Shown here piece after piece: positions 1,401 through 64,000 of a stretch of 64,000 nucleotides of DNA (within the stretch, counting starts at the first letter, position 1; every line of letters starts with the position of its first letter). The stretch lies in assembly GCA_006384855.1 (NCBI GenBank), contig VCJN01002438.1:97700-161699 (forward strand). Direction: 5' to 3'. A model generated the notes under the pieces. It was not told where the DNA came from and searched no databases. It was given only the letters and a program-made list of their open reading frames with translations. Both the position numbers and the translations under genes were made by a program. This stretch comes from Tetraselmis striata. Its lineage: Eukaryota > Chlorophyta > Chlorodendrophyceae > Chlorodendrales > Chlorodendraceae.

Positions 1401-4400
1401 GCCTTATTGAAGATCTGTTGGGTGCATAAATGCGGGAGGGGTGGGAGGAGGGGGGGGGGGGGGGGGGGCAGGCGTTACAGCGTTGCAGCATCTCGGGGTG
1501 TCACTATCGCAGTTTGCAGACAAGACCAGGGCATGCTGTGGTCTCCTCTGGCCACGGCAGCTAGCACACCTCCGAGAACCATTTCAGGCTGAAGCGGTAG
1601 GCGTGATTGATGGTCCGCATATCTGACAGCATGAAGTACAGCTCGCTGGCCACCTGCGCGATGCCCTTGACGTACACCTCACGCATGTCCAGGATGCGCT
1701 GCTGCATGTAGTTGACACGCTCCAGCTTGAACTTGAGGTCCGCGCTGGCATCGCGCGCCTGAGACAGCATTGTGTACACCACGGGCGACTCAAGGATAGC
1801 CACGGCGTCCTTGCTGGCAATGCCCTCCAGGATCCCCTGCTCAATTTCGCGCAGTGCTGACTGATATCTGCTCTTTGTGCGCCGCAGCTCCGCGCGTTCG
1901 CGGTCCATGTCCGGGTTATCAAACCTGCAGAATGTCGGCTCTGGTGAGAACAGGCGGGGATGTGCCTGGACTGGGAGCTGGGATTTGTAAAGTGGGCGGC
2001 AGCCATACCTCAGCACCATCAGAAACACACGCTCGATAAGCTGATCAGGGGTGATCGTGAAGTTGATTATCGACATCTTTGAAAGAAGCGCAGGGGAGAA
2101 CTCAGGCCGCTGCAGACGGCTCCACAGGAAGGGCTTGAACCGGCGGTCAAATGTATGCACTGCCTCCCCGAGCTGGATGGAGAGCTCGCCCCTTGCTCCG
2201 GCGAAGGTGCGGCGCTCCATGAGCTGGTCCACCGTAGGATTGACGCCCTTGCCGTCGCTGGTGATGATCACCGGTACCCCCTTCTCCATTGACCTGATAA
2301 GAGTGTTGATGCCATCTTGGTCGGTGGCCGAGACCTGCGGACAAGGGGAGGCGGCCTCAGCATTGGCATTCATACAGCGCGCAGGGTGGTATCTCATGTA
2401 GGCATCAAAAGATGGGCAACCACCTGCTCGATCAGCTTGTTGCTGTACAACTGCTGCAGCCAGCTGAGCGCCTGCTCCTGCGGATCAATGATAAGTGGCC
2501 AACGGCTGGAGCGCTCCATAATGATGGCGGTTTCAATGGCATTTGCGCTCTGGCTCAGTCCTGCATCGATCCATTCTGCGACCATCATCTCCTCGCCCGC
2601 CATGCTGGCAAAGTCAAAGCTGGTGTTGTGCTTGATGTTCAAACGGGTCAGGATGTTCTTCCACTCCGACAGCGCATGTGACCGCAGTGCGGGCGGCAGC
2701 GAGCCGCAGTACGCCAGAAACGCCGATGCCAGCAATGTATTCCCAAGAGCCTGATGGGAAGCAGCAGCAGAACAATCATTGTCTCAGCGACTGCCCCCCC
2801 CCCCCCCCCCCCCCCCTCAGTGGCTTCTTTGCCGGCTATCATGTATATAGTACACGGGGCTTGCAGGGACCGGGACCGTACGTCATCTACGTTATGGTTG
2901 AGCTCAAGCGCGGCGGCCTCCCATTGCGCCTTCTCCGTGGTGAGGGCCTTGAGCACATGGCGCGCGCGTTCCACCTTCTCTGTTGCATTCCGCATGTCCA
3001 CTTGAAGCTGGTCCCGATGTGCCATTGCACTCTCGTACTTGAACTTCAGATCCTCAACGCTGGCATGGATGGCGCCCAGTGTTTCACGCTTCTTCTCCAA
3101 GCGGGCCTGCTTCTCCAGCAGCTGGCGCTCCGCACGGTGCAGGGCGTCCGTCTTGGGCCCAATCACATTCTTGGTGTCGTGGTACATGTCTATGGCAAGA
3201 ACCCAGCGACACAAGCACGTCGCTGCCTTGGACACCTTGGCAATCGACTTGGCATTGAACTCGGGCTGCGATGTGAAGTAGTCAACCTGCGGCAGTCGCA
3301 TAAAATGCAGTTCAGGAGGGACGGACAGAACACATCGTTCACGACAAGGGAGGCATAAGCACTGAAGGTATCTAGAGGTGTACAGCCTGCGCTCACCTGT
3401 TTGATGACACTTTCAGGAATCGAGTTCTTGTCAAAGGTGAGCAGTATCTCCATGAAGTTGATCTGTCCCAGCAGCTTCATGCTCTCACGCCACCACAGGG
3501 CGTCCTCTACCTCAGGCTCCAGGTTGCGCCGGTCTTGAATGCCTTGCGGTATGGCTCCAAGCATGTGGCACACAGCCTTCATCACCACCTTCACGCTCAC
3601 CGGCGGGTTCTTCAAGCTCTTGAGCTCCGCAATATCGCCCTTGTTGATGTTCTGCAGCTCCTTGAGCGCGCGCCGCAGGGGCGGCATGGAAGCCTCCAGA
3701 TCCGCATCGCATTGATCCCGCAGGCTGTAAGCTTCCACGGCCGACTTCTCTGCGGCCTTCTCCTCGATCTCCAGCTGTAAGGCGGTTCCGCAACGAGACA
3801 CACAAAATGAGCTGAGGCATCGCCACTGCCCACCCCCCCCCCCCTCCCCTTGATCAGCACGGCTGCGGCTCCAGCCTTGTTCAGCACCATGCATCGCTTT
3901 CACCGGACAAAGGTGACAGTGCAACGCAGCCAGCAACATCTTTCCGAAGAAGGATAGCCCTGACACATTGTCAGCTCCTGCACCGCCCACGCGGAAAGCT
4001 TCGCGGGCGGCTGCCTCGTCTATTTTCTGCGCTACTTCAACTGGCCCGCGCACCTGCTGCTGCATCATGCTGGCCTCGTCCTGCTCCGCATGAACGCGCT
4101 GCAGCAGCCGCTCTGTCTCGTCCGAGGACGCCTGTTTGGGCCAGCCGTAGCACGGTCACTCATACCGGGATGCAGACACAGCAGCCAATCGCGGATCGGA
4201 GTTTCCGGAGAGCGCACCAGAATGGCAGGCTGGATGGAAATGAGCGCCTCCTCCAGCTGCTTGATCTTGTAGGCAAGGTCCTTCATGTTGTTCACTCCCT
4301 CGATGTACTTGTCATGCTGGTCGCCAGAGTTGGACTGCATGTGCTTCAGCATCGCTGGCACCTGCTTCAGAAGCTCCAAGAACTCGGCATTTGCAACCTG

Positions 4401-7400
4401 CCGCCATGGCACCCAGCGCGTTTAATGACTCAGCTGACAGCTACCTGAAGCATGCAGCCAATCAGACAAATACCAGCTGCAGAACTCATAAAACAGCGCG
4501 GCGCCCACAACATGGTGGGAAACAAACACCAAGATGGAGAGCTGCGCACCCTGAACAGTGGGTTTTTGGATGAGTAGTCCTTGGACAAGGCCAACATGGT
4601 GCGGTGAATCTGCACACAGGCCCGGATGATAGTCTCCCTACGGTCCGCATAAAGGCCATCGGGCCCAAGCAGGCTGACACGCGACAGCGCAACCTCTGCC
4701 ACTGCCGTGCGTGAGCTCGAGCTCCACTGGTCGACGCAGGTCACGTGACAGAGGCTAATGAGCTGCGGAAACTCGCGCAGCCGGGAGGAGAAGAGGGCGC
4801 TGGTGGGATCGGTCGCCAGCACAACCCGCAAGTGCTGCCGGCACTGCTCGAAGAAAAACCTGCCAAAACGTAACTTGTGAGTTTCCATGGCAATTAAGTA
4901 TAAACTCCCATCATGTCACAACCATTTATGCATGGAACGGTACCATTATGTGCACATGTGTGCTACAGTCCGATGTGACCGAGAAAATGGGAATGGGGCG
5001 GACGGGATGGGTGGGAGGGGGGGAGGCGCACTGGAGGAGGTCCCAGTTGGACGGCTGGGCCTCCTGTGGGCTGGCTGGGTGCGCCGCCGCATACTTGCTG
5101 TGCAGTCTGGCCAAAATCGTCTCGAGCTCGTCCGGGGCATACAGCCCGCGGACATGACCGCTGCTCATGAGCTGCACCAGATCGTCCATCATGTCTGTGG
5201 TGTAGCGCGCGCGGTCGCGCAGCAGTAGCACAACTCCGCGGCCCATGACACCCGGGGTGTGCAGCATCTTCTTCAGGTCCTCACGCCACAGGGCGCGCGA
5301 ATAGCCTGCATGGAAATAGGTATGGTGGCAGGTCTTAGGACACAAACTACGAACATGTAAGACGAAGCCATGCCGATTCTCAGCTGCACAGCAATGTGTC
5401 TTGCGATCATCCTGCGCCTACTTCAGGCCACTTGGTCACGGCTGCTGTTGTCATCAGGCATCCCTGGATGGGAGAGCTGGTCCATGCGCCAGGCTGAGGG
5501 GAGGGCTCACCAGGTCTGACATTGATCTCCACGCACTGCATGCCGCTGAGGAAAATCCCCAGACGGGCGATGCCGTTGCGGCCGCTCCCTGCCTGCCCAA
5601 GGAGCAGCAGGTGCCCCCCTGGCTGTGACACAATGCGTGAGACGCGGGCCAGCTGCGCCACAGAGGCTCGAAACATCACCAGCTTTAGGGGGTGCCGTGT
5701 GTTCAGCAGATTGAACTCCTCCTGCGGGGAGCAGAGCATGCTGTGAGGCTGAGCGTGACTGTAAGTGACTTGGTGCACAGCTGGCTTGCATATGGCCGGG
5801 AAAGAGTGAAAAGGCACTATGAGGTACTGACAGACGTATACTTGCACAGAGGGACCGCTAGTGACCTGTGCTGTGGCAAGCGAGCAGGCAGCTTGTGGCT
5901 GTGGGAGTGGGCCTGGGAGGCGGTGGAGCGAGCAGAGCACCTGGTACAGCTCCAGCAGCCCACGCAGCGTAGCCGTCTTGGACTTCTGCTTCCTCCCATT
6001 TGCAAGCATCTCTTTGCCGATCTGACGCTGTGCCTGACGGAGGTTGGCCAGGCCCTGCGCCGTCTCTGAGCCGTGCTCCTCAGCCTCCGCCGCCATGCGC
6101 AGCTCTTCTGTCTGTTTCCGCTCATCTCCTGCAAGCTTGGTGCTCCGCTCTGCTTGTGCCATCGCAGCTGCTGACATTGCCTCCAGCTCAGCGTCCCCAC
6201 TGTCCTGCCAATCTTCCACATCATCGGCGGCCGCGCCTGCATTGCTCGGCCCTAACTTGCTGGCAGCCTCCTCCGGGGTCGACGCTTCCTCTGGAAGCTT
6301 TACTCTCATCCCTTTCTTGGACTCCCCGCCTGATAACTTAGGCGCAGGGTCATCCTGCTTGCTGCCGTCACCAGACTTACTGCCGCCGCTCTCGTGCGCC
6401 AGCATGTCGTCAAGAGCTTCTGATCGCGATAGTTTCTCTGCGCCATACAGTGTTGTGCAGTACACGTCTCCCCGTTGGCGATAGAAATTGGCAAAGAGCA
6501 CCTCCATGCCGTCCGGGTCGCCCACTGTTTTGCGTGTAATGCAGCTATAGCCTTGCATGACCTTTGGTGCGGCAAACAGCATCGAGGGGTACCATCATCA
6601 GCTACGCAGTGGACGGGGTGAATCAGAGGGAGGGTCCCCGGATCGGACTGGGAGGGAAGGTGGGAGAGGGGCCTTCTCACACCCCGGGAGGTCAGGCCAT
6701 AGTTAGCACCCGGAGCCAGCTGCCCTAACTAAGCATGGCTTGGGGCACGTGCTAAAACTAATCATTCACAGACTAGCCGGCTGGCATATTCGTTCTACAT
6801 TCACAATGCGAGCAAACTTCGTGAATTTCAGGCGGCCCCTGTTGGTTGATGATCATCTAGCCTCAGGTGCGCACTTGCACTGCATGCCAGAAGACCAAAG
6901 GACATAGCGGGGCGGGAAGCTGTTTGCTCAGGGTAATGGCTCACCTTGGTCAGCAGGCTTAGGAACCAATGGCGTAGGCTGGGGTCAAGCAGCTTGTCAA
7001 ACATGGAGCGCATGGTCTCATGGTACCATAGCACAGCAAAGCTCTCCGGCGAGACAATGGCGTCCTTGGACGCAGTCATGATTCCTTGGAACACGCGCGC
7101 AAGGTCGCGCACTGAGAACAGATAGTGCGGCCGGCTAGGCACTGGTAGCAGTCGGCTCGACATTTCTCGAAGCACTGTGCAGGAGGCCTCAACCAGCGCG
7201 TGTGCCTCTGTGCGCACGTCAGAGGAACAGCCTACCAGCGAGACATCGCATATGGCCTGCCGGGGAAGACGCACACGTCGCATTATTGACATGCCATGAA
7301 GAACGTTACTGTTTGATCCAGCCACACACTTCAAGAGCCGCTACCATACATGGGAGAAGCCTTGCCGACATAGCCGCATAGATAAAAAGCACAGCATGTC

Positions 7401-10400
7401 GCACACAAACCAACACACCGCAAGCGGGGCGGTTGCAGTACGGTAGGAAGGGCAGCAAGGCAGGTGCTAGCAGACTGCTGACCTAGGGGCAGCAAACCTT
7501 GAAGATGCGTGCCAGGGCGGCACTGTTCATGGTGGGTGTGGTGACGACTGCGCATTGGCGCATGAGCCGGTGGTGCGGCGAGCCAAGCTGGCCAGTGGTC
7601 AGCGAGGCAAAGACCTGCAGACGGCGCAGGGCGACGAGCTTGTTCGCACCGGGCTCGCGCCAGGCACGCTGCTCCAGCCAGCTGCGTAGCGCCTCGAGCG
7701 GGCCACAGGCACCCCACCCATCCACAGGCGCAAGACCCATGTCCTCGATGAAGATCACTCCGGGCTTGCCGCCCGGTGGCCCCAGCTCACCCTGCGCCAC
7801 CTTATGCAGGCGCCTCCCCACCGAAGCCTGAATTTCCTCAACGCCGGATCGCTTGCTCAGCTGCACAGTGACGTGGAATACCGCTGTGCGATCGTCAGGT
7901 ACCGCCTCGCTTGCCTGGCGCTCACGCGCAGCCGTGCCAAAGACCGCATAGCTGGCACTGAGGCGTGGAGACGCGTCTGCAGTGGTTCCGTCGGCATTTG
8001 CCCCAGCTGTGTCCTTGTTGCCAAGCCAGCGGTGGACGCCGCGCAGGAAGGACTCCACCAGCATGCTCTTCCCTGAGCCAGTGGGGCCTGCCAGCATGAC
8101 AGGGCCGCAGTCACCAGGTAGGAAGAGCAGCTGCAGCAGTCGTGAGCGCGCCACGCTCTCCGCGGTTGGCACCATCAGTGCGCGCACATCGCCTGAAGCC
8201 GGGCTGCCAGGTGGAAGCCGGGTTGCGTAGGCGCGCCCTGCCCAGCTGTCCCACTTTTGTGTGTCGGAATCAAAGGCGTAGTCAAACACTGTGCCCTCGT
8301 CTGGGAAGGGCACCAGCACGCCGCGCATGTGTGCACGCACAATGATGCCTGCGCTGCTCTGCTGGTAGCTGAGCTCCAGGCGCTGCAGGCGGCGCATCTC
8401 CTCGTTGAAGTCGCTGCGGTCCGTGTACGAGCAGTTGGCACCGAGGCTCCATACAATGGCAAACATGACAAAGCTCTCGAGCAGAACGTTTGTGTCTCGG
8501 ATAGAAAGCGTGGCCCAGCTGGAGGGCCGGCGCTCCAGGAGTTGGCCGCCCAGCAGGCGGAGCATGGAGGAAACCAGTGCAACCCCTGCTTGCGGCAGCA
8601 TCGACCGCCCTGGCATCGCTAGGAACGTCAGCAATGGCCGGCAGAAGGCCTTCATCATCACATCCAGCTTGTTGGCATGCGGCATGAGCTCCGCTGGCAG
8701 CGCGCTGTTCACCCAGCAACTGATTACATACCGCCAGTCGTCTGCATCATGGAGCATGTGCACAATGCCCAAGCGGCCTGCCCGGGAAATGGGAAAATAA
8801 GCGGGCCACTGAGCGACTGTTTTTTTTGAAATAGCCCATTGAAGCTGAAATAACACCTCTGTCCCTAAATCCACAACATTGCCTCACCCCCTCCCCCTCC
8901 TAGGTTGGATACACACATACACACGCATGCCTTTGGCATAATATTGGTGGCTGCAAAGCAATCAGAACCATACATGCCAAACTTGATTGCGCTGGCTTGT
9001 CGCCCGCCAGATGGCAATCGGTCAAGCAGCCAACGTCAAACGCTGACGTCGCCATAATTGGACTTGGCCCATTTGTCTGACATTATTTTGCAATGTCACG
9101 TAACCCTCACAATTGGGAGCAGGACAGCTGCACTGGCGTTGTGGCGAGGCATCAGGAATTGGAGCGTACCAATGCTGGCAGGCGAGGCATGGGTGATGGA
9201 GTCGGTCTCAAAGAGCAAGTTCGTGCCAGTGCGCAACTTGATGGTTTCCCCCGTGCCCAGCGTCAGCTCCCTGCGCAGCAGCAGCGCGTTGGAGGCGGCG
9301 ATCTCAGCAGCAGCAATTACACACAGTCAGACTCATCTGACTACCCCTTGCCTATCTACGCATCCGGGTTCTCAGTGCCGTTCGCACATAGCTCTGGGGT
9401 CTGCCATGTCCGGCAGGCCATGGTCCCCCTGGGGCACCCACCTGGAATCATCCAGCAGCGTGTTGAGGTCCTCCATCCACACCGGGTCCACCGGTCCGTC
9501 CAAGACGATCCAGTGATCGCCAGATGTTGACGCAGAGGCCTCACGCAATGCAGCAGTGAAGATCCCATCCGCCCACAACTGTGAGCTACTGCTGTAGGAG
9601 CCATAAAGACCCTCCTTGGAGATAGCCTTCGGGTAGATCACTGTCTCTGTCAGCTTAAACCCCGGCTGCACATAGTGGGTGGAGGGGAATTGTGAGGGGG
9701 GGGGGGGGGGGGGAGGGAGACTCAGCCCCGGCGCTGTTGATTGCAATAGCAGTGTAAAGGAAGGGTGCTTGCGGCCGCGGGCACACGGTGGGAGGGGGGG
9801 GGGGGGGGGGGGGGGGGGGGTCTTGAGAAGGGAGACAACGCAAGGCCGTGATCGGGCGCCACAGTAGCTGCGAGCCTCCATCGACGAGTGTTACATGGAA
9901 TGCACAGTGGGCGACCGGGGGCGTACTGCAGCCTTGAGGCGACGTATGGCATCCAGCAGAAGTCGCCGCAGGGCAGTCTTTCCACAGCCAGCATTGCCCA
10001 GCAGCATCACGCCCGGCTGCATTTCAACCATGTCGGCCAGCTGGATGGCATGACGCACGATGTGCGTACCAACCTGCACGCTGGGCGTGTCCACACCAAC
10101 CTTGCGCAGCGTCTCCACTAATTTCAGGTTGTCACCTCGGCTGCCACCGTCTTCTGGAAAGGCATTCTGCAGCAGCACCTCAAATACTGGCACGTCCTGT
10201 ACTCGCCAGCAGCACATCCATGGATTAGACAGCCGCAGGGTCGTGCAAGCAATCGGCCATACGACCATGGGAAGCGTTTCATCCAGTATTCAGCGTGGTT
10301 TTAGTGGGACGCAGCAGACTGCTCACACAAGGCCCTGCTGTAGCCGAGAGCCAACACAAAAGCTGACCATGAGCAGTGCACGACGTGCTGTGCCTCATAG

Positions 10401-21984: not shown

Positions 21985-23090
21985 CCTCCCGGCGCGGCTA
22001 GAAGCGCACTATGCTGCTCCCGCTAGTTAACCACCTGCTGCAGGTCCACACTTGCAGTGTTCAGCGGCACTGAATAGGCGACCACATGTTGATTTGAGCC
22101 CCCCCCCCCCCCCTCCCCCTTCCGCCCCCCAAAGGGCCCCTGCGCGTGCATATCCACGCCCACCTAGAGCTGCCCATCCCCTCGCTGACCGCCTCCCCAT
22201 CCCCTCGCTGACCCCCCCCCCCCCCCCCACCCCCCCCAAACTCCTCAGGCCTACCGCTCACCGACCTGCCACCCGCGCATGGCCCTCTCGGCCTTCGCCA
22301 CGCAGCCGCTCATGCCCTGCTCCGACACCCTCACCCGCGTGCCAGTCCCGCTATGTCCTGGGCGAACAGCTAGGTATAAAACGTGCGACCTAACGCTGGC
22401 ATCCCGAAGTAGCGGACTTTCCCAGTCAAGCCAGTCACATAATACCGACAGGCCATTCTACCACCGCCACGCCATGTGCGAAGGCTGCCGTCACCCCACT
22501 CAGCCGGTCGCTCCGATGTCGTGTGCGATCGATCCATTGTCGTTTTGGGTGCGAGGGATGCGGGGTATGTTAACCCGGGGGGGGGGGGGGGGGGGGGGGG
22601 GGCGGGGATCCGCTCTCGCAACTCCCCGCACCGACAGTGTCACCCGCCGCAGCGCGGCAGCGGCATGCTCAGCAGGCGCAGTGGTCTTCTCGGAGTGCTG
22701 ATACTTGCAGGCGAGTCGCCCGCTCCTGCCGCCTCCTACGTGCATGTGGTCGTGTTATCGGAGCCGTTCCAGTCCGCGCTGCCACTCGGACGCTGTCGCG
22801 GGGCGGGCGCCATGCCGCTCCCACAAAGACCAGAAGCATGCGGTGCTGATGCCGCCGCAGACGCGGCATTCTGCACTACAGCATCAGTGGTACAGGAGTG
22901 AGTTACAATAAGTGAGTACAGGTAGTCGCTAATCCTTATCATCCCCGACGAGGACGGCGGAAATTCGCTGCGCTGATTTGCAGATTCTAAATCCCGTCAA
23001 CACCACGGATACCACACGGCCCACGGTATCGCACACTCCCATTGGGTAGCCACATATACATATATGTATATATACATATGGATATATAAC
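21985..23090. other. intergenic DNA upstream of the dynein gene
   Basis: No convincing gene. It should hold the dynein promoter, but I see no clear TATA box close to the start. It contains C runs near 22101-22113 and 22211-22228 and a 26-base G run at 22577-22602. An alternating TA-rich stretch (about 23053-23088) abuts the left LTR of the copia element. Confidence 0.6.
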
Positions 23091-23235
23091 TGGCAAAGAT
23101 GCCTTGGTGCCATGCTTTGGTGCCGTACGTCTGCCATACGGTCCAAATTAGGCACATGTACGGCAGCCAGAAAAATGCGGATTTCACAGAGAGAAAAATG
23201 CGGATTCAGGGAACCCGGGTACCCTTGGTCCAACA
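23091..23235 (-). repeat. 3' LTR of copia element
   Basis: Partner of 27230-27373. It directly follows the polypurine tract on the minus strand. Confidence 0.88.
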
Positions 23236-23249
23236 CCCCTCCTCATCCT
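23236..23249 (-). other. polypurine tract of copia element
   Basis: AGGATGAGGAGGGG on the minus strand, immediately 5' of the 3' LTR, in the position of a plus-strand primer site. Confidence 0.75.
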
Positions 23250-23349: not shown

Positions 23350-24005
23350 TCAGCGGCAGCGCTTAGGGAAGAAGTCGGCCAGGTGGGCCGGGGTAGGCGT
23401 GTTGTGCATGTAGTAGGTGATGTCGTCTTGGTAGAGCTGGACCGCATGCTGAAACTGGAGGTCAATGTGGCGTTCCGCGCCTGTAATCATACCATGTTGC
23501 ACCTGAACGATGCATGCGCGGTTGTCCCCGCATACTTGCACCGGGGCAGCAGTGGGGTGGCTGAGCTTGGCGCAGAAGAACGCGAATAACCGCCAGACAT
23601 GTGCAGACCACGCAGAGCGCCACGAACTCCGCCGCGGCAGTAGACATGGCCACGCTGCCTCCGAACCTTGGATGCCTGCGGCAGGTCGTAGAGTGCCTTA
23701 ACGGGATGCCAAGCCCGGTCCTTACGGCCACATCCGAGGGGGAGGTAGTCATAGGCATAGGTCTCGCCGGTGGTGAGTAGATTGCCGCGAACGATCACGC
23801 CGGTCTCGCGCTTGATGATGTTGCCATCCTCGTGCTGCGCCGCGAAGGCCCACGCCGTCTGTTGGATGACCGCTGACTCGTTGTCGCGTCGAAACTCAGG
23901 GACGTGGACCCAGATGAAAAGTGCCATCGTGGTGATAGAGTTGATCTCATGGTTCATGGACTTCTTCCAGTCATCGGGGCGAGTGCTGGAGATATCCTCA
24001 TGATA
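23350..24005 (-). pseudogene. copia reverse transcriptase / RNase H remnant
   Basis: A copia RT start is visible from about 23990: DDWKKSMNHEINSI, then WAFAAQHEDGNIIKRETGVI and VRGNLLTTGETYAYDY (compare W-x2-AM-x2-E and LVARG in intact elements). The frame then jumps to VKALYDLPQASK (23667-23696), the equivalent of KALYGLKQAPR, so the segment between is deleted and no YVDD catalytic box remains. In other frames come the RNase H pieces SVAMSTAAAEFVALC (about 23640) and GDNRACIVQVQHG with ERHIDLQFQHAVQLY and AHLADFFPKRC (23350-23541). Several frameshifts and deletions make this non-functional. Confidence 0.8.
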
Positions 24006-25461
24006 GTTGCACCGAGGACACGCGCCGTGGACACGCGCCGTGGACACGTGGACAGTGGGTGCTGGTAGGGCGAGGGCTGTCAGCCGCGCTGAGCGGGGGC
24101 TCACAGCCGCCGCGATTGCGGATGCCACCAGTGTTGGGTGGTAGTCGCTTAGGTCGACATAATGGGAAGTCAGTTGTGCATGTTTGCTGGTGTGAGGAGC
24201 CGACAGCGCCGTGGCGTCCCCCTCCTGATGGTGCGGAGGGTGCTGCTCGTTGTGATGTGGAGGTGGGGGGCCCTCCTGCGCCGAAGCCAGCGCCGCCGAT
24301 GGCAGCATGGGTGGCGGTGCGTGGGGCCCCTCCTGCTGGCCCGAGGGTTGAAACGCGTCCATCAGGTAGGCAGCGTTGGAGAAGTGAAAGGCCGGCATGG
24401 AGAGGCGGGGTCTTGCGCCCGGTAGCCGGGTTGTAGATGCGGCAGACACTGAAGGGGCCGGGGTCGGCGAGCTTGATGGCGGCGACGTTGTTGCCGCAGT
24501 TCCGGATGTCTTGCGGTTGAGTGATAATGGTCCACAGAAGGGTGTCGCGGTGAACCGCCGAGCCGCAGGACGCCGCGCGCATGATGTTGCATGCGCCAAA
24601 TGAGGAGAGTACTTCTGGTAAGGCCAGCGCGTCTGGAAAATTCTGCACAGTATAGCGCACTGGTGTGGGCTGAGAAGACAGGTAGAAGCGGGTGAAGCCA
24701 ATGACGGAGGCGAAGGCACGAGAGCGATGGTCCTGCCGGTCAAGGCGTGAGCCCGTGCGTGACCATGGTTGTAACGGTGTGCTTGACACGACGAGGGTGA
24801 ACGGGCGCAGCCGCTCCAGCTCCGTGATAGTGATGTCGTTGATGTTCATGGGGGTCCCGTCATGACAGTCATGAAATGCTGATGGAGGCAGGCGGCCCGG
24901 ATATTTGTTGCTGATGACATGTAGGTGATGTGGCCACATAGTGCGAGCCTCCGTTGATGGGTCGGCGCCGATGAACGCGTGGATGGAGAAGCCATATTCC
25001 ACCACAGCCTCCACCTCAAATGCCGATGGGCCATGGCAGGGCGAGAAGAGATGTTCGGTTACCAAAGAAGAGCTCGGCATATGGAGGAGCGGGGCAGCGG
25101 TGAGTATCGGGAGCGGCGGTGGCAGGTCTCCACGTAGGGCGCCCTGCCCCGTATGAACGTCCTGGGCCGCCAGTGCCGCTGAGATTGGGAATGCGGGTGA
25201 AGCGAGGCATAGAGGTTGAATTGGGGTGGGAATGGGTTGAGAGCGGAAGTGGCGGGCGCGCCATGGGTGTGAGAACGGGAACTGGAAGTTGTCGCCAGAG
25301 TTGGAGTAGGGGACGTGCCAGGATTCATGAAATTCATCGTCTTCGTTGTCCTCGCCCTCCCCCTCCTGCGCTCCGGTGGCTGCCCCTCCTGGGGCGGTGG
25401 TGGTGGAAGTGAGCATGACAGGCAAGCCGCTGTGGTGTGGTACCAACGAGGACACACCCAT
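23998..25461 (-). pseudogene. cytosine-5 DNA methyltransferase-like domain inside the copia element (catalytically dead)
   Basis: The 487-codon frame begins 34 bases after the gag stop. By eye its middle follows the C5-methyltransferase motif order. A degenerate motif I (HLFSPCHG, residues 137-144) is followed by VVEYGFSIHAFIGADPSTEA, where these enzymes have the SAM-binding acidic residue. Motif IV is VVSSTPLQPWSRTGSRLD (residues 224-241), with Leu (TTA) in place of the catalytic Cys of PCQ. A motif VI equivalent VQNF (for ENV) follows at 272-275, and a motif VIII-like block, CGSAVHRDTLLWTI, at 299-312. Motif IX/X appears only weakly, partly in another frame (24351-24413). Methyltransferase domains captured by LTR retrotransposons are known in some algae and dinoflagellates. 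The assignment rests on pattern recognition and needs a profile search. Confidence 0.6.
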
Positions 25462-25494: not shown

Positions 25495-26697
25495 CTAGTA
25501 TGAGTCGTTGTTGCCCGGGTGATGTCCGTGGTGGTGATGTCCGGCCGGGGAGACGAAGCCGAATGGTTGGTGATGGCGCTGCAGGTCGTCGTTGTCGCTC
25601 TGGATGGGCCAATATTGCTGCCGTTTGGGCCTGTTTTGATGGTTGTAGTCGTTGCGCAGGTTGTGGGTATAGTTGTCGTTGACGTGACGCTCCGCAGGCG
25701 CGCGCTGACAGTGATTATAGCTAGGGTTGTTCATGGTGCTGGGTGGGGCGGTGTCACCCATGAGACGCAGACCGTTGGCATGGCGCTTGGCCAAACACTG
25801 CTGTTGAGCATGGCCCGGACGGTCACACATGATGCAGACAATGTTGGGCCTGGTGGCATGTAGTTGGTCCCTGAGGTCGCAGAAATTGAAAGCTGGCGTG
25901 CGGGAACGGGCGCTACTGACGCTGACGCGTGCGCGCCTCCATGTTATGTCCGGCACTTATGATGGTTGCCAGCCTCTTGTTGACATTGGTTGCCGAGATG
26001 GTGGCGTCGACAATGTGATCGTATGCTGGGTGAAGTCCTGAGATGAGGTAGTTGATGGCCACGTGCGTACTCGAATGTCCATTGGCCATGTGCCTTGCGC
26101 AACAAATTCCAGAGGTTCCGGCAGCGGCGAACGTACACCTGGACCGGCTCATTCGGGAGCTGGCCGGCTGTGATTTCTTCCTCGAAGGGCATGCGCTCCT
26201 CTATGGCAGAGCCCAAGAGTTCAGTAAGTAGGGCCGTCCAGGCCGCATATCCACACTTCTTGGAGTCCATGCTGATGTTGTCGACGATGGCCAGTGCCAT
26301 GGGATAATTCGCTGTCGCGTGGCGCAGGGCTGCCAGAAGAATGAGCTGCTCTTGGTGGGTGCCTTTGCCCTTGGTGGTGTCTAGGTAGCCGGCGCTGCCG
26401 AGGGAGATCTTGATGGCGTGAGCATTATCACGCGTAGAGATGTTCTGGTCCCACACGGGGACCGTCGCGAGGTCGAGTGTCAGCTTTACTGCAGACGGCT
26501 TAATCCATTGGATGTCACTGGAGTCACTGGAGTCTGACGCTACCATGTAGGCTGGAAGCGCCTTCAGAAATTCTGGTATCACTGTCACTAAAGTCAGGCG
26601 GCGGTGGGTCGCTGCCAGGGTCCTTATTGACCGCACTCCTCCCAGCTAGATTAGGCAGAGGGGTGTTCATCATGCCGGTGGTGATGCTGGTAGACAT
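25495..26697 (-). pseudogene. copia gag-like polyprotein, frameshifted
   Basis: The likely start is the ATG at 26697 (MSTSITTGMMNTPLPNLAG). The frame shifts near 26580, again near 26080 and again near 25950, so at least three breaks interrupt it. The middle part has the copia gag (UBN2-like) pattern: ALLTELLGSAIEERMPFEEE followed by VYVRRCRNLWNLLRKAHG, then NYLISGLHPAYDHIV. A CCHC zinc knuckle, C-x2-C-x4-H-x4-C (CIMCDRPGHAQQQC), lies at 25795-25836 and is the nucleocapsid signature. A His/Asn/Arg/Gln-rich tail ends at the stop near 25495. Gag forms the virus-like particle that packages the element RNA. Confidence 0.75.
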
Positions 26698-27168
26698 GGT
26701 GGAAGGATGGCGCACTTATCCTGGAAGATGTATATAATTGTAGGGGTGGGCGGGTAGGAAGAAAAGTCTCGTCGCACGTCGCCGTCGATCGTCGAAAGCT
26801 GTCGAGGGTCGAGATACACGCAGGTTGAAGCCTCTGGCAGCCGTCGAGCACGGGGCAAGACGTCGAACCAAAGGAGAGGGCCCAAAAACCTGTCGGAGGG
26901 GGGTTGTCGAAGTGATGGCTGAGTGGCACTGTCACTGATGGGGGGAGAGTCGGCGAGAGTCGGCGTGCACGTGTCGAATCACGTCGGTGCCAGCAAGCGA
27001 GGTGCAAGCTGGAAAGGCAAAGGGCTGCTGTGAGCCGTGGGCGATGGACGATAGGTAGTCGCTGTCGCCGTGGTGATGGCTGAGTGGCATTGTCACGAGA
27101 GAGAATGGGTGAGTCGAAACATTTCTGGGAAGAGCAGCTGACTGAATTACAAGGAGCCAAGGCTGGCA

Positions 27169-27177
27169 ATTTATACC
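27169..27177 (-). promoter_or_regulatory. possible TATA box of copia element
   Basis: The minus strand reads GGTATAAATT, flanked by the inverted pair GGCTGG/CCAGCC. It lies about 55 bases inside the 5' LTR edge, so it may drive element transcription or be fortuitous. Confidence 0.35.
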
Positions 27178-27229
27178 AGCCGGCTAGGTGTCAATTAGGA
27201 CGGACACCTCTCCGTCTAAGAAGGCCAAC

Positions 27230-27373
27230 TGGCAAAGATGCCTAGGTGCCATGCTTTGGTGCCGTACTGCTGCCATACGGTCCAAATTAGGCACATGTAC
27301 GGCAGCCAGAAAAATGCGGATTTCACAGAGAGAAAAAGCGGATTCAGGGTACCGGGATACCCTGGGTCCAACA
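27230..27373 (-). repeat. 5' LTR of copia element
   Basis: Matches 23091-23235 along its length with roughly eight differences by eye (about 94% identity). Begins TGTTGGACC and ends TTTGCCA on the minus strand. Confidence 0.88.
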
Positions 27374-51865: not shown

Positions 51866-54800
51866 TTAATTTGCAGTCGGCACACGTGCCGGGTATTTAT
51901 GCATATGCTCCACAAATTCAGGTGACTTTACAAAGTCCAACCATTTGGGAGTAGCCATAAAATCCTGCAATGCTATTGTCCTTTTAACATCAAACAAACG
52001 ATGCCAAACAGGGGCAATAGACTCATCCGCAAAGTGAACAAGAAATTGCAACTGAGTACCACGTAAACCGGGCATGGAACCGATCTTAACGCTGGTAATC
52101 TTGTCAATCTCATACTCATCATCAGAGTCGTCACCGGTACCAACAACAAGAGGTACATGCGGGCGCAACGGCGCAGTGGGACAGGGTCTCAAGTTATTAA
52201 CATGAAATACTGGGTGCAACTTAACACCAGCAGGTAATTTCAGTCGATAACTATGACCGCCAATTTTCTCTACAATAGAAAATGGGCCAAGCTGCTTGTC
52301 CATCAGCTTTTTGCAAGGCTGACCTTTGACCTTAAGCAGACGGGTATCCACAGATACTCTATCTCCAACATTGAAGATAGGAGGATTGCGCTGTTGCCTA
52401 ACACTAGGACGAACAGTCAATTCATCTTTATGGACAGCCAACACTGACCGAACCAACTCGTGAATCTCCTTCATATCTTGGATACGTTGCTGAGCATCAC
52501 GAGAGAATGCTATTGTTGGTCTCATACCAAACAATACATCCGGAGGCGTTTCAGGATTGAAACCATACATAACCTCAAATGGTGCATGCTCAATGCCAAG
52601 TGCTTTGTTGGAATTATACGCAAATTCCATCAATGGTAACTGGTCTACCCAGTTTGAACCATCGAAACAACAAAACGCACGAGCCAACTCAGTGACTATG
52701 GCATTAATGCGTTCAGTCAAACCATCTGTTTCAGGATGTTGGCCACTAGACATGTTCAAGTTAGTGCCAAGTCTCCGCCACAGAGTTTGCCAGAATGCAG
52801 ACAGGAACCGTGGATCTCTATCAGAGACGATCACACGAGGTATTCCATGCAGCCTGAATACTTCCTTCAGAAATAATTCAGCTGCCTGTCCACCAGTCAC
52901 GTTGACTGTGGTTGGAATAAAATGTGCTTGCCGGGACAGATGGCAACACACAACCAACATAGTATTATAACCATTACTCTCAGGTAACTCGGTTATAAAA
53001 TCCAAACCAACCGTATGCCATGGACGTGGCGGTACTGGTAAGGGCTGTGTTGGTGCAGGTGGCTGCGGACGTGCACGAACACGCCGGCACACCGAACATT
53101 GTTCACAATAGGTTTTCACGTCATGTCGTATGCGTGTCCACCAAAAACGGTCCAAGGCACGTGCCAAGGTGCTTGCATAAGCACGGTGACCAACAGAATC
53201 ATGTAGCTCATACAATATCTTATTGATGATGTCACGATTGGTTGGTATGCAAAGACGTCCATGTCTCCAAAAATAACCATCGTGCTCTACCACATGACCG
53301 GACTGCTTCCACCCCCCCCATAAGGAGTAGAACGCGTCCTCTGCATATCCAGCCTTAATAAGGTGGAGAATATTGTCATCAAGGCTAAGTGACGACGCAC
53401 TTACAGCCGACAATACTGCAGTACATGGGCGATGTTCACTCACGAGTGATTCAGCCGCGTCCGGCACATCCCCGGTCCAATATAAGCCACCGAAACCAAT
53501 CGGCTTAAAATCCGGTCTACGCGACAGCGGATCGGCTTCATTCCACTTGCCCTTTCGGTATGCAAGAGATATGGACCCAACAAACGGTTGCAAGTCGCGT
53601 ACATAGCGCACTTGTCGCCGGTTCAACCTTTCTGCCGGTTGCCTGAGCAGATGACGCAGGGTGTCATGATCTGAGACAACAAGGAATCGACAGCACCCTT
53701 CAAGGTAACAACGCCAGTGCTTAATTGATTCACAGACAGCCAAAGCTTCCAAATCATAAGCACTGTAGGTATTACCACGCTCAGCTGCATTCAGCTTTCG
53801 CGCCCAGTAACTCACTGGTTGAGGACCTCCTCCTTGGTCCTGCAGTAGTTACTGCAGCAAGCCCTACGTTGGACGCATCTGTCCGCTACGGTGAACGTCG
53901 CATCCGCCCCCATGGAAGGAATGGAAAGACACGGAGCGAAATCAGTCGCAGACGAAGGGTCTCAAAGGCTTCCTGACACGCCGGTGACCAGTCAACATGA
54001 ACTGGTTTAGACTTACGCAATAAGTCAGTCAATGGTGCAGTTAAATCACTGAAATGATGAAATAAACTTAGGAGTAGCAAATTGCAGAAATTGTAACGAA
54101 ACCTTCTGAACTTCCACATGTACTAACTCGTAGTATATCGTACTCGTATAATTGTCACACTACATTCCGCCCCCCTGCGAGAATTCAATTCTCGACATCA
54201 GCGGGGTTCGAACTGGTGAACCTTACATCAGGATGCTGGCGCCTTGTAACAATTGAGGCGGTATCAATCCGGCTCCGAAGCACAACGCTTACCACACGTA
54301 CGGCAGCATTATACAGTACATATACTCTTAGTCCCAGGTACACATTGTACTAGTACACACATGTACTAACTCGTAGTATATCGTACTCGTATAATTGTCA
54401 CAATAAACTTAGAGTAGAATTGCAAAATTGTACAAAACTTCTGACTTCACTCTGAGTTTTAGGGACAGGCCAATCCCTAACTGCAGCCACTTTGGCCTCT
54501 GAAACTGACAACTTACCATCAGCGACGGTATACCCCAAATAATCCATAGATTGCATGCCAAAGAAACATTTCTTTAATTGCAACCTCAGATGATATTCAT
54601 TCAGTTTCTCAAAAACTAAACGAAGGGTGCTTTATTGGTCATCATAATTATCTGAATATATACATATATCATCCAGTTACACCACCACAAAAGTCACGCA
54701 AAAATGGTCTCAAGATGTCATTCATCATGCGCTGGAAAGTGGCTGGGCATTGCACAAACCAAATGGCATTGCAGTCCACTCCCATAGACCATCAGGTGTC

Positions 54801-55727
54801 TGAAACGCTGTCTTGTGGATGTCCCTCCTCTGCAATGGCAACCTGCCAATAACCTGATGCTAAATCCAGATGGGTTATAGCAACGGGGCATTGCGGAGAG
54901 AATCCAACGTTTCCATCAATTCGCGGCAAAGGATAACATATCCTTTCGAGTGACCTCGTTCAGCCCACGAAAATCGACACACAACCGAAAGGGATCCATC
55001 TGCCTTCTTAACAAAAAGAATAGGCGAACCAAACTCAGATTGACTAGGACGAACAAGTCCAGCGGCAATCGCATCTTTGAGTTGGCGATCCAATTTCAGC
55101 ACGTTCAGCGGGAGACAAATGATTAAGTCTTTGGCGTTTCATTTTGCCAGTTAACTCAATTTTGTGATCCCATGGCCGATGAACAGGCGGCCCTGTTGAC
55201 TGGACGCAAAATTTCAGGAAACTCGTCATACAACAAATGACAATAGCATCCTTTTGCTCTGGTGTCATAGCATTGTCTAAATGCAGGTCAGGATCATCCT
55301 TTATAACCGACATTTCAACGACATAGAATTCAGCTAAAGAATTATGCTTAGACGCACGAGCAGTTTTGCGCATCAACTTTTGTACCCTAGTGGAAGTAAT
55401 CATGCTACTTGCAGGAGTACGACCCACTATTACAACAGGTACATGGGTTCCATCCATTAAAGTCATGATACGTTCCGTACCATACTTAATGGTAACTTGC
55501 GCTTCATCAAGCCAAGTTAAACCCAATACAATGTCGGACTTTGAGCTCACGCAGTATATAAAAAACTCGATTCTCAAATACATGTCCTCCAACAGACAGA
55601 GACACAACAGTTGTATGGTAACATGAGACACGTTGACCATTAGCCAAACGGACAGATGTTCTGGCTTTCAACTGTTGTATCTGCAAGTTTTTCTGCGCAC
55701 AAAGTCCTCAGATGTAAAATCTAAAGA
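51866..55727 (-). pseudogene. gypsy pol, unit A
   Basis: The intact 649-codon 3' part (51866-53815) spans the end of RNase H through integrase. RNase H ends with KGKWNEADPLSRRPDF. Integrase has the zinc motif H-x-H...CEQCSVC and the DDE triad in GLDFITELP, VSDRDPRF and GQHPETDGL. A chromodomain-like tail follows (YEIDKITSVKIGSMPG onward), ending ARVPTAN. Upstream, RNase H is frameshifted near 53845, a miniature LTR element interrupts pol at about 54114-54402, and RT and protease are split by many small indels (54398-55640). This unit is inactive. Confidence 0.85.
54114..54402 (-). mobile_element. truncated TRIM-like insertion in unit A
   Basis: Corresponds to the right-hand 290 bp of the insertion in unit B (58664-58952). 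On both sides lie related copies of about 50 bp of RT/RNase H target (54061-54113 and 54403-54450), so this is not a simple insertion footprint. Confidence 0.6.
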
Positions 55728-56250
55728 TGCGACAGTCTCGGGTGCCTCACGCAGGTCAGGCAGACAAGGCTGTCGTAAACACAAAGAAGGCAGCAGAGAG
55801 AGAAAGAAACAATGGTTACAACGTTGTCACCACCCGCCGCTATTTATGCGTATGGCTAGCTCACAGCTAGCCACCACCAAGCGGCACGCGCACTGCTAAG
55901 CGCGTCACCGTGAGAGTCGTGCCTCGAAGTGTCGAACAGGAGGTCGTCGCTTAGAGACCTCCGCACATGTAGTTGACACATCAGTTTATACACAAGTATA
56001 CAACTGATGTTACAGAGACAGCATTATACTTGTGCCCGCTACGGGTACGCACATGCGTATTATCCCGTAACTACTACTGAACAGTGTACCGGTACCAGTA
56101 GGACTCGTCTCATGATTCATCATCCACCAGTACTCGTATTGTGGCGCGTGACACACGCGCGCACACATACGATACAGCAGGTACTCGTACATGAATGATG
56201 CTACGATCATACAGTACCCGTACAGAGTATGCCATTATTGTCACACTACA
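55728..56250 (-). repeat. gypsy LTR B
   Basis: 523 bp, same ends as LTR A with GTCGCA at the 3' end. The TATA-like box and hairpin are conserved. Confidence 0.85.
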
Positions 56251-56295
56251 TCTCTCCCCCTTGACAACAGTGTGAAATAGCATTCCACAGGCAGT

Positions 56296-59200
56296 TTAAT
56301 TTGCAGTCGGCACACGTGCCGGGTATTTATGCATATGCTCCACAAATTCAGGTGACTTTACAAAGTCCAACCATTTGGGAGTAGCCATAAAATCCTGCAA
56401 TGCTATTGTCCTTTTAACATCAAACAAACGATGCCAAACAGGGGCAATAGACTCATCCGCAAAGTGAACAAGAAATTGCAACTGAGTACCACGTAAACCG
56501 GGCATGGAACCGATCTTAACGCTGGTAATCTTGTCAATCTCATACTCATCATCAGAGTCGTCACCGGTACCAACAACAAGAGGTACATGCGGGCGCAACG
56601 GCGCAGTGGGACAGGGTCTCAAGTTATTAACATGAAATACTGGGTGCAACTTAACACCAGCAGGTAATTTCAGTCGATAACTATGACCGCCAATTTTCTC
56701 TACAATAGAAAATGGGCCAAGCTGCTTGTCCATCAGCTTTTTGCAAGGCTGACCTTTGACCTTAAGCAGACGGGTATCCACAGATACTCTATCTCCAACA
56801 TTGAAGATAGGAGGATTGCGCTGTTGCCTAACACTAGGTCGAACAGTCAATTCATCTTTATGGACAGCCAACACTGACCGAACCAACTCGTGAATCTCCT
56901 TCATATCTTGGATACGTTGCTGAGCATCACGAGAGAATGCTATTGTTGGTCTCATACCAAACAATACATCCGGAGGCGTTTCAGGATTGAAACCATACAT
57001 AACCTCAAATGGTGCATGCTCAATGCCAAGTGCTTTGTTGGAATTATACGCAAATTCCATCAATGGTAACTGGTCTACCCAGTTTGAACCATCGAAACAA
57101 CAAAACGCACGAGCCAACTCAGTGACTATGGCATTAATGCGTTCGGTCAAACCATCTGTTTCAGGATGTTGGACATGTTCAATTTAGTGCCAAGTCTCCG
57201 CCACAGAGTTTGCCAGAATGCAGACAGGAACCGTGGATCTCTATCAGAGACGATCACACGAGGTATTCCATGCAGCCTGAATACTTCCTTCAGAAATAAT
57301 TCAGCTGCCTGTCCACCAGTCACGTTGACTGTGGTTGGAATAAAATGTGCTTGCCGGGACAGATGGCAACACACAACCAACATAGTATTATAACCATTAC
57401 TCTCAGGTAACTCGGTTATAAAATCCAAACCAACCGTATGCCATGGACGTGGCGGTACTGGTAAGGGCTGTGTTGGTGCAGGTGGCTGCGGACGTGCACG
57501 AACACGCCGGCACACCGAACATTGTTCACAATAGGTTTTCACGTCATGTCGTATGCGTGTCCACCAAAAACGGTCCAAGGCACGTGCCAAGGTGCTTGCA
57601 TAAGCACGGTGACCAACAGAATCATGTAGCTCATACAATATCTTATTGATGATGTCACGATTGGTTGGTATGCAAAGACGTCCATGTCTCCAAAAATAAC
57701 CATCGTGCTCTACCACATGACCGGACTGCTTCCACCCCCCCCATAAGGAGTAGAACGCGTCCTCTGCATATCCAGCCTTAATAAGGTGGAGAATATTGTC
57801 ATCAAGGCTAAGTGACGACGCACTTACAGCCGACAATACCGCAGTACATGGGCGATGTTCACTCACGAGTGATTCAGCCGCGTCCGGCACATCCCCGGTC
57901 CAATATAAGCCACCGAAACCAATCGGCTTAAAATCCGGTCTACGCGACAACGGATCGGCTTCATTCCACTTGCCCTTTCGGTATGCAAGAGATATGGACC
58001 CAACAAACGGCTGCAAGTCGCGTACATAGCGCACTTGTCGCCGGTTCAACCTTTCTGCCGGTTGCCTGAGCAGATGACGCAGGGTGTCATGATCTGAGAC
58101 AACAAGGAATCGACAGCACCCTTCAAGGTAACAACGCCAGTGCTTAATTGATTCACAGACAGCCAAAGCTTCCAAATCATAAGCACTGTAGGTATTACCA
58201 CGCTCAGCTGCATTCAGCTTTCGCGCCCAGTAACTCACTGGTTGAGGACCTCCTCCTTGGTCCTGCAGTAGCACTGCAGCAAGCCCTACGTTGGACGCAT
58301 CTGTCGCTACGGTGAACGTCGCATCCGCCCCCATGGAAGGAATGGAAAGACACGGAGCGGAAATCAGTCGCAGACGAAGGGTCTCAAAGGCTTCCTGACA
58401 CGCCGGTGACCAGTCAACATGAACTGGTTTAGACTTACGCAATAAGTCAGTCAATGGTGCAGTTAAATCACTGAAATGATGAATAATGCGGCAGTCTCAG
58501 CCGGATAGAGACTGCAAGGGACAAACAAAGGTGGTGTGCAGTGGTGGTGCAAAGGCGAGAGGCTACAGTGTTTTGAGAACACAACAATTGTTTAACACAA
58601 CGCTTACCACACGGCAGCATTATACAGTACATATACTCGTAGTCCCAGGTACACATTGTACTAAACACATGTACTAACTCGTAGTATATCGTACTCGTAT
58701 ATTGTCACACTACATTCCGCCCCCCCTGCGAGAATTCAATTCTCGACATCAGCGGGGTTCGAACTGGTGAACCTTACATCAGGATGCTGGCGCCTTGTAA
58801 CAATTGAGGCGGTATCAATCCGGCTCCGAAGCACAACGCTTACCACACGTACGGCAGCATTATACAGTACATATACTCTTAGTCCCAGGTACACATTGTA
58901 CTAGTACACACATGTACTAACTCGTAGTATATCGTACTCGTATAATTGTCACAATAAACTTAGAGTAGAAATTGCAAAATTGTACAAAACTTCTGACTTC
59001 ACTCTGAGTTTTAGGGACAGGCCAATCCCTAACTGCAGCCACTTTGGCCTCTGAAACTGACAACTTACCATCAGCGACGGTATACCCCAAATAATCCATA
59101 GATTGCATGCCAAAGAAACATTTCTTTAATTGCAACCTCAGATGATATTCATTCAGTTTCTCAAAAACTAAACGAAGGTGCTTTATGTGGTCATCATAAT

Positions 59201-60271
59201 TATCTGAATATATACTCATCCAGATATACAAACCACAAAGTCACGCAAAAAATGGTCTCAAGATGTCATTCATCATGCGCTGGAAAGTGGCTGGGGCATT
59301 GCAAAACCAAATGGCATTGCAGTCCACTCCATAGACCATCAGGTGTTTGAAACGCTGTCTTTGTGGATCCTCCTCTGCAATGGCAACCTGCCAATAACCT
59401 GATGCTAAATCCAGATGGGTATATAGCAACGGGCATTGCGGAGAGAATCCAACGTTTCATCAATTCGCGGCAAAGGATACATATCCTTTCGAGTGACCTC
59501 GTCCAGCCCACGAAAATCGACACACAACCGAAGGGATCCATCTGCCTTCTTAACAAAAAGAATAGGCGAACCAAACTCAGATTGACTAGGACGAACAAGT
59601 CCAGCGGCAATCGCATCTTTGAGTTGGCGATCCAATTCAGCACGTTCAGCGGGAGACAAATGATTAAGTCTTTGGCGTTTCATTTTGCCAGTTAACTCAA
59701 TTTTGTGATCCCATGGCCGATGGGATGAACAGGCGGCCTGTTGACTGGACGCAAAATTTCAGGAAACTCGTCATACAACAAATGACGAATAGCATCCTTT
59801 GCTCTGTGTCATAGCATTGTCTAAATGCAGGTCAGGATCATCCTTTAAACCGACATTTCAACGACATAGAATTCAGCTAAAGAATTATGCTTAGACGCAC
59901 GAGCAGTTTTGCGCATCAACTTTTGACCCTAGTGGAAGTAATCATGCTACTTGCAGGAGTACGACCCACTATTACAACAGGTACATGGGTTCCATCCATT
60001 AAAGTCATGATACGTTCCGTACCATACTTAATGGTAACTTGCGCTTCATCAAGCCAAGTTAAACCCAATACAATGTCGGAGACTTTGAGCTCACGCAGTA
60101 TATAAAAAACTCGATTCTCAAATACATGTCCTCCAACAGACAGAGACACAACAGTTGTATGGAACATGAGACACGTTGACCATTAGCCAAACGGACAGAT
60201 GTTCTGGCTTTCAACTGTTGTATCTGCAAGTTGTTTCTGCGCACAAAGTCCTCAGATGTAAAATCTAAAGA
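56296..60271 (-). pseudogene. gypsy pol, unit B
   Basis: RNase H and integrase are open from 58454 to about 57150. A 7-bp deletion near 57172, relative to units A and C, then removes the catalytic Glu context (GQHPETDG) and shifts frame. The integrase C-terminus and chromodomain-like tail remain open at 56296-57150. A 466-bp TRIM-like element splits pol at 58487-58952. RT pieces (58960-59231, 59241-59429, 59405-59683) and the protease remnant (59916-60271) are broken by further indels. Confidence 0.85.
58487..58952 (-). mobile_element. TRIM-like miniature LTR retroelement in unit B
   Basis: The insertion is flanked by AATAA (58482-58486 and 58953-58957), while unit C has the site once. On minus it has a truncated 5' LTR (about 58833-58952), an internal part of about 118 bp ending in a polypurine tract (AGGGGGGCGGAA), and a 3' LTR (58487-58714). 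The LTR starts TGTAGTGTGACAAT and ends GAGACTGCCGCA, almost the same ends as the surrounding gypsy LTR. No coding capacity. Confidence 0.75.
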
Positions 60272-60794
60272 TGCGACAGTCTCGGGTGCCTCACGCAGGT
60301 CAAGCAGACAAGGCTGTCGTAAACACAAAGAAGGCAGCAGAGAGAGAAAGAAACAATGGTTACAACGTTGTCACCACCCGCCGCTATTTATGCGTATGGC
60401 TAGCTCACAGCTAGCCACCACCAAGCGGCACGCGCACTGCTAAGCGCGTCACCGTGGAGAGTCGTGCCTCGAAGTGTCGAACAGGAGGTCGTCGCTTAGA
60501 GACCTCCGCACATGTAGTTGACACATCAGTTTATACACAAGTATACAACTGATGTTACAGAGGCAGGCATTATACTTGCCCGCTACGGGTACGCACATGC
60601 GTATTATCCCGTAACTACTACTGAACAGTGTACCGGTACCAGTAGGACTCGTCTCATGATTCATCATCCACCAGTACTCGTATTGTGGCGCGTGACACAC
60701 GCGCGCACACATACGATACAGCAGGTACTCGTACATGAATGATGCTACGATCATACAGTACCCGTACAGAGTATGCCATTATTGTCACACTACA
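60272..60794 (-). repeat. gypsy LTR C
   Basis: 523 bp, nearly identical to LTR B. Confidence 0.85.
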
Positions 60795-60840
60795 TCTCTC
60801 CCCCCTTGACAACAGTGTGAAATAGCATTCCACAGGCAGT

Positions 60841-63800: not shown

Positions 63801-64000
63801 CGATATGTGACTGTTGACTGGAAATTTCAGGAAACTCGTCATACAACAAATGACGAATAGCATCCTTTTGCTCTGGTGTCATAGCATTGTCTAAATGCAG
63901 GTCAGGATCATCCTTTATAACCGACATTTCAACGACATAGAATTCAGCCAAAGAATTATGCTTAGACGCACGAGCAGTTTTGCGCATCAACTTTTGTACC
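60841..64000 (-). pseudogene. gypsy pol, unit C (best preserved, runs off window)
   Basis: The frame from 63766 is open through RT and RNase H to about 62290. RT shows FGSPILFVKKADGSLRLCVD, QTPDGLWEWTAMPFGLCNAP and the catalytic VVYLDDICIYS. RNase H shows FTVATDASNVGLAAVL, YSAYDLEALAVCESIKHW and FLVVSDHDTLRHLL. A C run near 62286-62292 has two fewer C than units A and B and shifts the frame. The second frame, up to 62373, carries the whole integrase with DDE residues and the chromodomain-like tail to the stop at 60841. The protease side (63775-64000) is partly deleted near 63800. Confidence 0.88.

Follow-up and report, generated by a model that had tools for sequence, protein, structure and literature searches.

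Transposons are commonly countered by C5-methylation. Retrotransposons that carry a DNA methyltransferase (DNMT) of their own are already known, with detailed descriptions for two lineages: LINE and DIRS elements in Symbiodinium and a Gypsy element in Klebsormidium nitens (de Mendoza et al. 2018, PMC5890265). In the sections of that paper considered here, the Copia elements of Symbiodinium appear without a DNMT domain, and the SymbioDIRS enzymes are reported to methylate CG in yeast. Gypsy and DIRS are also the carriers of C5-enzymes named in the relevant part of PMC6338049. 'LTR Copia' is given as a DNMT3 carrier in one 2025 sentence on streptophytes and dinoflagellates (PMC12344493), which offers no detail and cites the 2018 paper, where the element is called Gypsy; the mention could be an error for Gypsy or point to an undescribed case, and Tetraselmis is absent from its main text. 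In the relevant part of PMC9998398, the only DNMTs described from Tetraselmis are DNMT5a and DNMT6. The excerpted text of PMC6180176 is unrelated. The literature matches listed, mostly outside subscription journals and bioRxiv, include no DNMT-bearing copia element of Tetraselmis, and in these sources copia seems hardly known as a carrier. The captures by LTR retrotransposons invoked in the first-pass annotation of the present locus have a counterpart in the algal Gypsy element; the other precedents detailed in the sections considered are LINE and DIRS elements, not copia.

The window analysed here is a stretch of 64,000 nt from the chlorophyte Tetraselmis striata (class Chlorodendrophyceae; assembly GCA_006384855.1, contig VCJN01002438.1, forward strand 97,700-161,699). 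Its minus strand contains a 4.3-kb element of the Ty1/copia type, bounded by terminal repeats of ~148 bp (Table 1). With a probability of roughly 0.7, we interpret this element as a dead, non-autonomous copy of a T. striata Ty1/copia family, the fuller members of which carry a C5-methyltransferase between gag and protease. Like KnitGypsy-Dnmt3 of K. nitens, it belongs to the LTR retrotransposons of green-lineage algae with a DNMT in the coding region; however, in the available description KnitGypsy-Dnmt3 is a Gypsy element with the DNMT inside the Pol polyprotein, whereas the T. striata case is a chlorophyte copia element whose DNMT follows gag and precedes protease. SymbioDIRS-Dnmt3 and SymbioLINE-Dnmt also represent retrotransposon-borne DNMTs in many copies, but, in the same source (PMC5890265), these are DIRS and LINE elements of dinoflagellates. 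As in SymbioDIRS and KnitGypsy, the T. striata DNMT is located in the same coding region as the element proteins and is present in many copies (55 T. striata proteins). Such a copia element in a chlorophyte would extend the known systems by an element type, an insertion point and a host lineage.

The assignment to Ty1/copia is based on the presence of RVT_2 and of an integrase ahead of the reverse transcriptase (RT) in the relatives, and on two features of the window copy, its terminal direct repeats and its polypurine tract. In the sense direction, the window element contains gag, a CCHC knuckle, the DNMT remnant, the integrase/SH3 end, RT pieces and RNase H pieces; the integrase core is deleted. 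The two terminal repeats are 94.6% identical, with 7 mismatches over 148 aligned bases and one gap (K2P 0.049). No clear target-site duplication or primer-binding site is seen at the element, the flanks of which consist of AT microsatellite. The window copy's own RT remnant gives no Pfam match, but positions 24437-23757 match residues 615-835 of the predicted protein P0147 with 59% identity (E=1e-67). A TATA-like box (TATAAA, sense) is present at 27170-27175 in the leader (27160-27226), on the inner side of the repeated 148 bp. If this box is the promoter, the actual LTR may extend beyond the repeat, with a shortened 3' copy. Between the 5' repeat and gag, the leader also contains a 33-nt direct repeat (26903-26935 and 27064-27096, 85% alike).

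Table 1. Features of the Ty1/copia-type element, in sense order, with positions in the window.
Feature	Position	Strand	Evidence or remark
5' terminal repeat (LTR or LTR part)	27227..27373	-	direct repeats; starts TGTTGG in sense
gag, disrupted into three frames	25910..26697	-	start codon 26697, MSTSITTGMMNTPL; tblastn of P0022, P0144, P0148, frames -2, -3, -1
CCHC zinc knuckle CIMCDRPGHAQQQC	25795..25836	-	motif; weak, sub-threshold match to Pfam zf-CCHC_5 (E=0.026)
DNMT remnant, from motif I-like HLFSPCHG to just past motif VIII	24448..25053	-	sequence and profile matches
motif I-like HLFSPCHG	25053-25030	-	window frame
AFIGADPSTEA	24978-24946	-	window frame
motif IV PFTLVVSSTPLQPWSRTGSRLD	24804-24739	-	window frame
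motif VI YTVQNFPDALALPEVL	24654-24607	-	window frame
motif VIII CGSAVHRDTLLWTI	24567-24526	-	window frame
deletion joint, KLADPGPFS (post-motif VIII) + CRIYNPATGRKTPPL (integrase C-terminal/SH3 end)	24391..24474	-	window frame
copia RT N-terminal remnant (DDWKKSMNHEINSITTMALFIW ... AVIQQTAWAF)	23844..23975	-	motif and P0147 match
second RT remnant (ETYAYDYLPLGCGRKDRAWHPVKALYDLPQASK), mid-RT lost	23667..23765	-	relatives and motif
RNase H remnants, two frames (AMSTAAAEFVALCVVC; HIDLQFQHAVQLYQDD...LADFF)	23368..23659	-	motif and relatives, without Pfam match
polypurine tract AGGATGAGGAGGGG	23236..23249	-	sequence; immediately precedes 3' repeat
3' terminal repeat	23088..23235	-	direct repeats

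The gag tail and the DNMT remnant form one uninterrupted frame of 498 codons (25494-23998) between the terminal repeats, which over the searched region is 100% identical to the T. striata gene model P0001 (TSEL_028433). The first-pass annotation had described a C5-methyltransferase motif order in a minus-strand frame between the copia gag knuckle and the RT remnant, and this description holds: every motif it quoted is found in its place in one open frame, flanked by the CCHC knuckle (25836-25795) and the copia RT/RNase H remnants (23975-23368). It had also recognized the exchange of the catalytic Cys of motif IV (PCQ) for Leu and the appearance of QNF in place of ENV; in the window frame both catalytic residues are indeed lost, the second by replacement of the motif VI Glu by Gln. 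In addition, the target-recognition region and motif X are deleted. The window copy, which lacks the catalytic residues of the C5-methyltransferase family, is classified, by its sequence, as a methyltransferase remnant rather than an enzyme. In a PDB sequence search with the window copy, two leucine-rich-repeat extensin chains (E=0.002-0.004) rank above DNMT2 (E=0.07). Against PF00145, the family profile named in the annotation, the window copy remains under the gathering cutoff of 22 (13.9 bits, E=0.038, around motif IV), while T. striata relatives exceed it. It is the match of these relatives that settles the observation, for which the window copy by itself would be insufficient.

A protein search with residues 120-350 of the window frame yields 35 matches at E≤10, all 35 from T. 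striata and 33 of them at E≤1e-3. Further searches (alignment A1; P0022) extend the T. striata relatives to 55 proteins, 53 at E≤1e-3. All of these are predicted gene models, which may join or skip pieces, and they are clustered at 90% identity and do not represent a sample of all copies. Among the best 120 of 288 matches at E≤10, the 94 from outside T. striata are general PF00145 proteins, with E-values from 2.9e-4 upward. When viral contigs were scanned once with alignment A1, 104 pattern matches were obtained, none of them a relative; a viral source is still conceivable. In the first set of ten relatives scanned, seven score above the PF00145 gathering threshold, and in a second set of ten, four are above it, one is at the cutoff and five have no match. 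The seven of the first set show the motifs PPCQPWSRAG, VENVPGALDFPEIL and CGSAAHRDTLMWTNI. In relatives, the same region is matched by PHROG DNA methyltransferase families (E=1.9e-11), and P0022 matches NCBIfam dcm (TIGR00675) at 5.5e-9, under the curated cutoff.

No one gene model spans the complete element, and the full layout is pieced together from several. P0144 contains gag, CCHC, DNMT and a DSGAS protease; P0146 contains the DNMT end, protease, gag_pre-integrs, rve and SH3; and in P0147 the DNMT, which is damaged, is accompanied by protease, SH3, RVT_2 and an RNase H motif. Both DNMT and RVT_2 are present in P0010, and the RVT_2 matches have E-values of 6.9e-17 (P0010), 7.5e-16 (P0147) and 2.1e-20 (P0149). 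The integrase precedes RT, with gag_pre-integrs, rve and SH3 followed by the RT start in P0015 and P0146. The predicted organization of the fuller members is LTR - gag(CCHC) - DNMT - protease - integrase - RT - RNase H - LTR, which is the copia order. In P0009, P0034 and P0143, the DNMT-copia piece runs into unrelated sequence, as a result of either genuine gene insertions or prediction errors.

The relatives can be divided into two subtypes. Scoring of 54 of the 55 proteins (P0034 is under the score limit) assigns 23 to type A and 25 to type B, leaving 6 unclassed. Type A proteins show the motifs PPCQPWSRAG, ENVPGALDFP and GSAAHRDTLxWTN, with the copia domains for protease, integrase, RT and RNase H downstream. 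The catalytic Cys is retained in 15/15 aligned type A rows and the catalytic Glu in 16/17, the exception being P0015, which has Gln; P0149 is set aside from these counts because its motif is deleted. As far as the catalytic motifs are concerned, the earlier expectation that the same genome may hold intact relatives is borne out at the level of gene models. The type A segment between motif VIII and the protease ends in LLGGVIDLNVMRNYI, which by eye we take to resemble motif X; a database match for this segment was not found. In type B, Gln replaces the catalytic Glu in 16/16 rows in which the motif is present (P0010, where it is deleted, is set aside), and Leu replaces the catalytic Cys in 4/12. 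The six unclassed rows have Cys in 5/5 and Glu in 3/3 where aligned.

Type B, including the window copy, shares one common deletion that extends from just past motif VIII to the integrase end. The resulting joint, DPGPFS followed by the integrase end RIYNPATGRKTPPL, is found in 25/55 T. striata proteins and in the window frame; these 25 joint rows and the 25 type B rows are not identical sets; for example, the joint is skipped in the P0001 gene model but visible in P0031 and P0034. In a tree built from 32 segments with a minimum length of 105 residues and from two outgroups, the window segment is placed inside the type B clade with a support of 0.998, and its identity is 79-100% to type B rows and 62-73% to type A rows. 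The domain, its place in the element, the catalytic residues of the relatives and the common deletion can all be read from the sequences themselves. The proposed capture of a DNMT by a copia element is upheld as to the link between the two, and refined in that the window copy represents a deleted, non-autonomous subtype from which everything from just past motif VIII through the protease and the integrase core is gone. P0015 (TSEL_017518) has the type A layout, yet falls in the B clade at 80%; it combines a type B-like DNMT front, with Gln for Glu, and a full protease-integrase part. We regard it as a template-switch hybrid or, alternatively, as related to the type B ancestor.

In profile comparisons with a set of 40 bacterial C5-methyltransferases, the type A profile aligns from motif I onward with a probability of 98.7% (hhalign, E=2e-16), the type B profile reaches 96.3% and the window frame alone 93.7% (E=2e-7), compared with 0.2% and 0.4% for two reversed-profile controls; this bacterial set was itself retrieved with a T. 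striata profile, so that the comparison is not fully independent. The support for the fold is partly circular. It is scarcely credible that the segment is an ordinary copia domain, such as an integrase or a linker, with a methyltransferase likeness that arose by chance. Such an explanation could be based on the sub-threshold Pfam match of the window copy alone, but the relatives exceed the PF00145 cutoff and the reversed profiles fail. An integrase or chance resemblance was rejected: integrase, SH3 and protease are separate from the DNMT in the same relatives. Nor is it at all probable that a host DNMT gene lies beside copia pieces and was fused to them by gene prediction. The relatives are all predicted models, some with unrelated fused ends (P0009, P0034 and P0143); however, in the window DNA itself a single open frame, located between the terminal repeats, includes both gag tail and DNMT, and the same order recurs across many gene models.

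That the enzyme acts on RNA, with the primer tRNA or the element RNA as possible substrates, in the way that DNMT2 acts on tRNA, is suggested by two PDB profile searches in which DNMT2 / tRNA (cytosine-38-C5) methyltransferases are the best C5-methyltransferase matches. In one search these have E-values of 0.0007-0.01, with a weak second stretch of 2 bits at the motif-X-like end; in the other, DNMT2 (E=0.003) is equalled by DNMT3B, and an unrelated glutaminase scores equally well (E=0.0019). Both searches are weak, with the glutaminase at a similar level to the methyltransferases, which makes the scores too weak to choose a class. Moreover, the DNMT2 match comprises only ~50 residues around motif IV, whereas the DNMT3B alignment spans motifs IV-VIII, including SAAHR...W.N in motif VIII. 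For the segment after motif VI, no C5-methyltransferase is listed among the PDB profile matches. The bacterial motif VIII is PQ.R.R (Q171, R173 and R175 invariant in 40 rows), unlike the SAAHR of the T. striata rows. By its motif VIII, the T. striata enzyme leans to the eukaryotic DNMT3 class, with which it shares the alignable motifs IV-VIII and SAAHR + W.N, but from which it differs in its motif I (FSPCHG) and in DNMT2 scores that are equal or better. An RNA substrate is accordingly judged quite unlikely. Somewhat less improbable, though still doubtful, is that the element took up the DNMT in a single event and has since carried it unused, as a passenger that decays in all subtypes at a similar rate. 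Many gene models are damaged, and an entire subfamily with a dead version has nonetheless spread; against this, the type A rows retain the catalytic Cys and, with one exception, the Glu while other positions vary, a pattern that recent common descent could also produce.

Under the preferred interpretation, that of a Ty1/copia family whose fuller members carry a C5-methyltransferase, copia seems to have acquired an enzyme whose usual role is to contribute to the silencing of these elements. From its position and the layout, the DNMT would be produced by the fuller elements as part of a Gag-Pol polyprotein, and would either be freed by the element's protease or remain joined. It could then enter the particle and methylate new element cDNA, or DNA at the landing site. 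Methylation of cDNA appears the likeliest use because SymbioDIRS enzymes methylate CG in yeast (PMC5890265), and the likeliest gain would be that a methylated copy is taken for the host's own or settled DNA. The simplest history would involve capture of the DNMT by a copia element, followed by the formation of a deletion derivative. The type B founder would have lost the DNMT tail, the protease and the integrase core, and acquired Gln for the catalytic Glu; its descendants would have spread without their own protease, integrase or working enzyme, probably on proteins from fuller relatives. We put forward only tentatively, as a possibility with the odds against it, that a living chlorophyte Ty1/copia lineage marks its cDNA with its own methyltransferase and is accompanied by a non-autonomous swarm from an enzyme-less founder, with Gln for Glu in each motif-holding copy, such that self-methylation was gained and shed within one family in one genome. 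Copies with and without the catalytic residues in one genome provide a natural comparison of the role of the enzyme for the element.

Elsewhere in the window, dynein heavy-chain motor pieces (AAA_9, AAA_8, AAA_7 and AAA lid) are found at 1561-8883 on the minus strand, in separate frames resembling host-gene exons, and Gypsy-type pol pieces (RVT_1, RNase H, integrase H2C2 and SH3_Tf2-1) at 51866-63826, also on the minus strand. The presence of the dynein pieces (1.6-8.9 kb) and the Gypsy-type pieces (51.9-63.8 kb) fits nuclear DNA. The G+C content is lower, about 0.44-0.49, from 52 kb on, around the Gypsy-type pieces.
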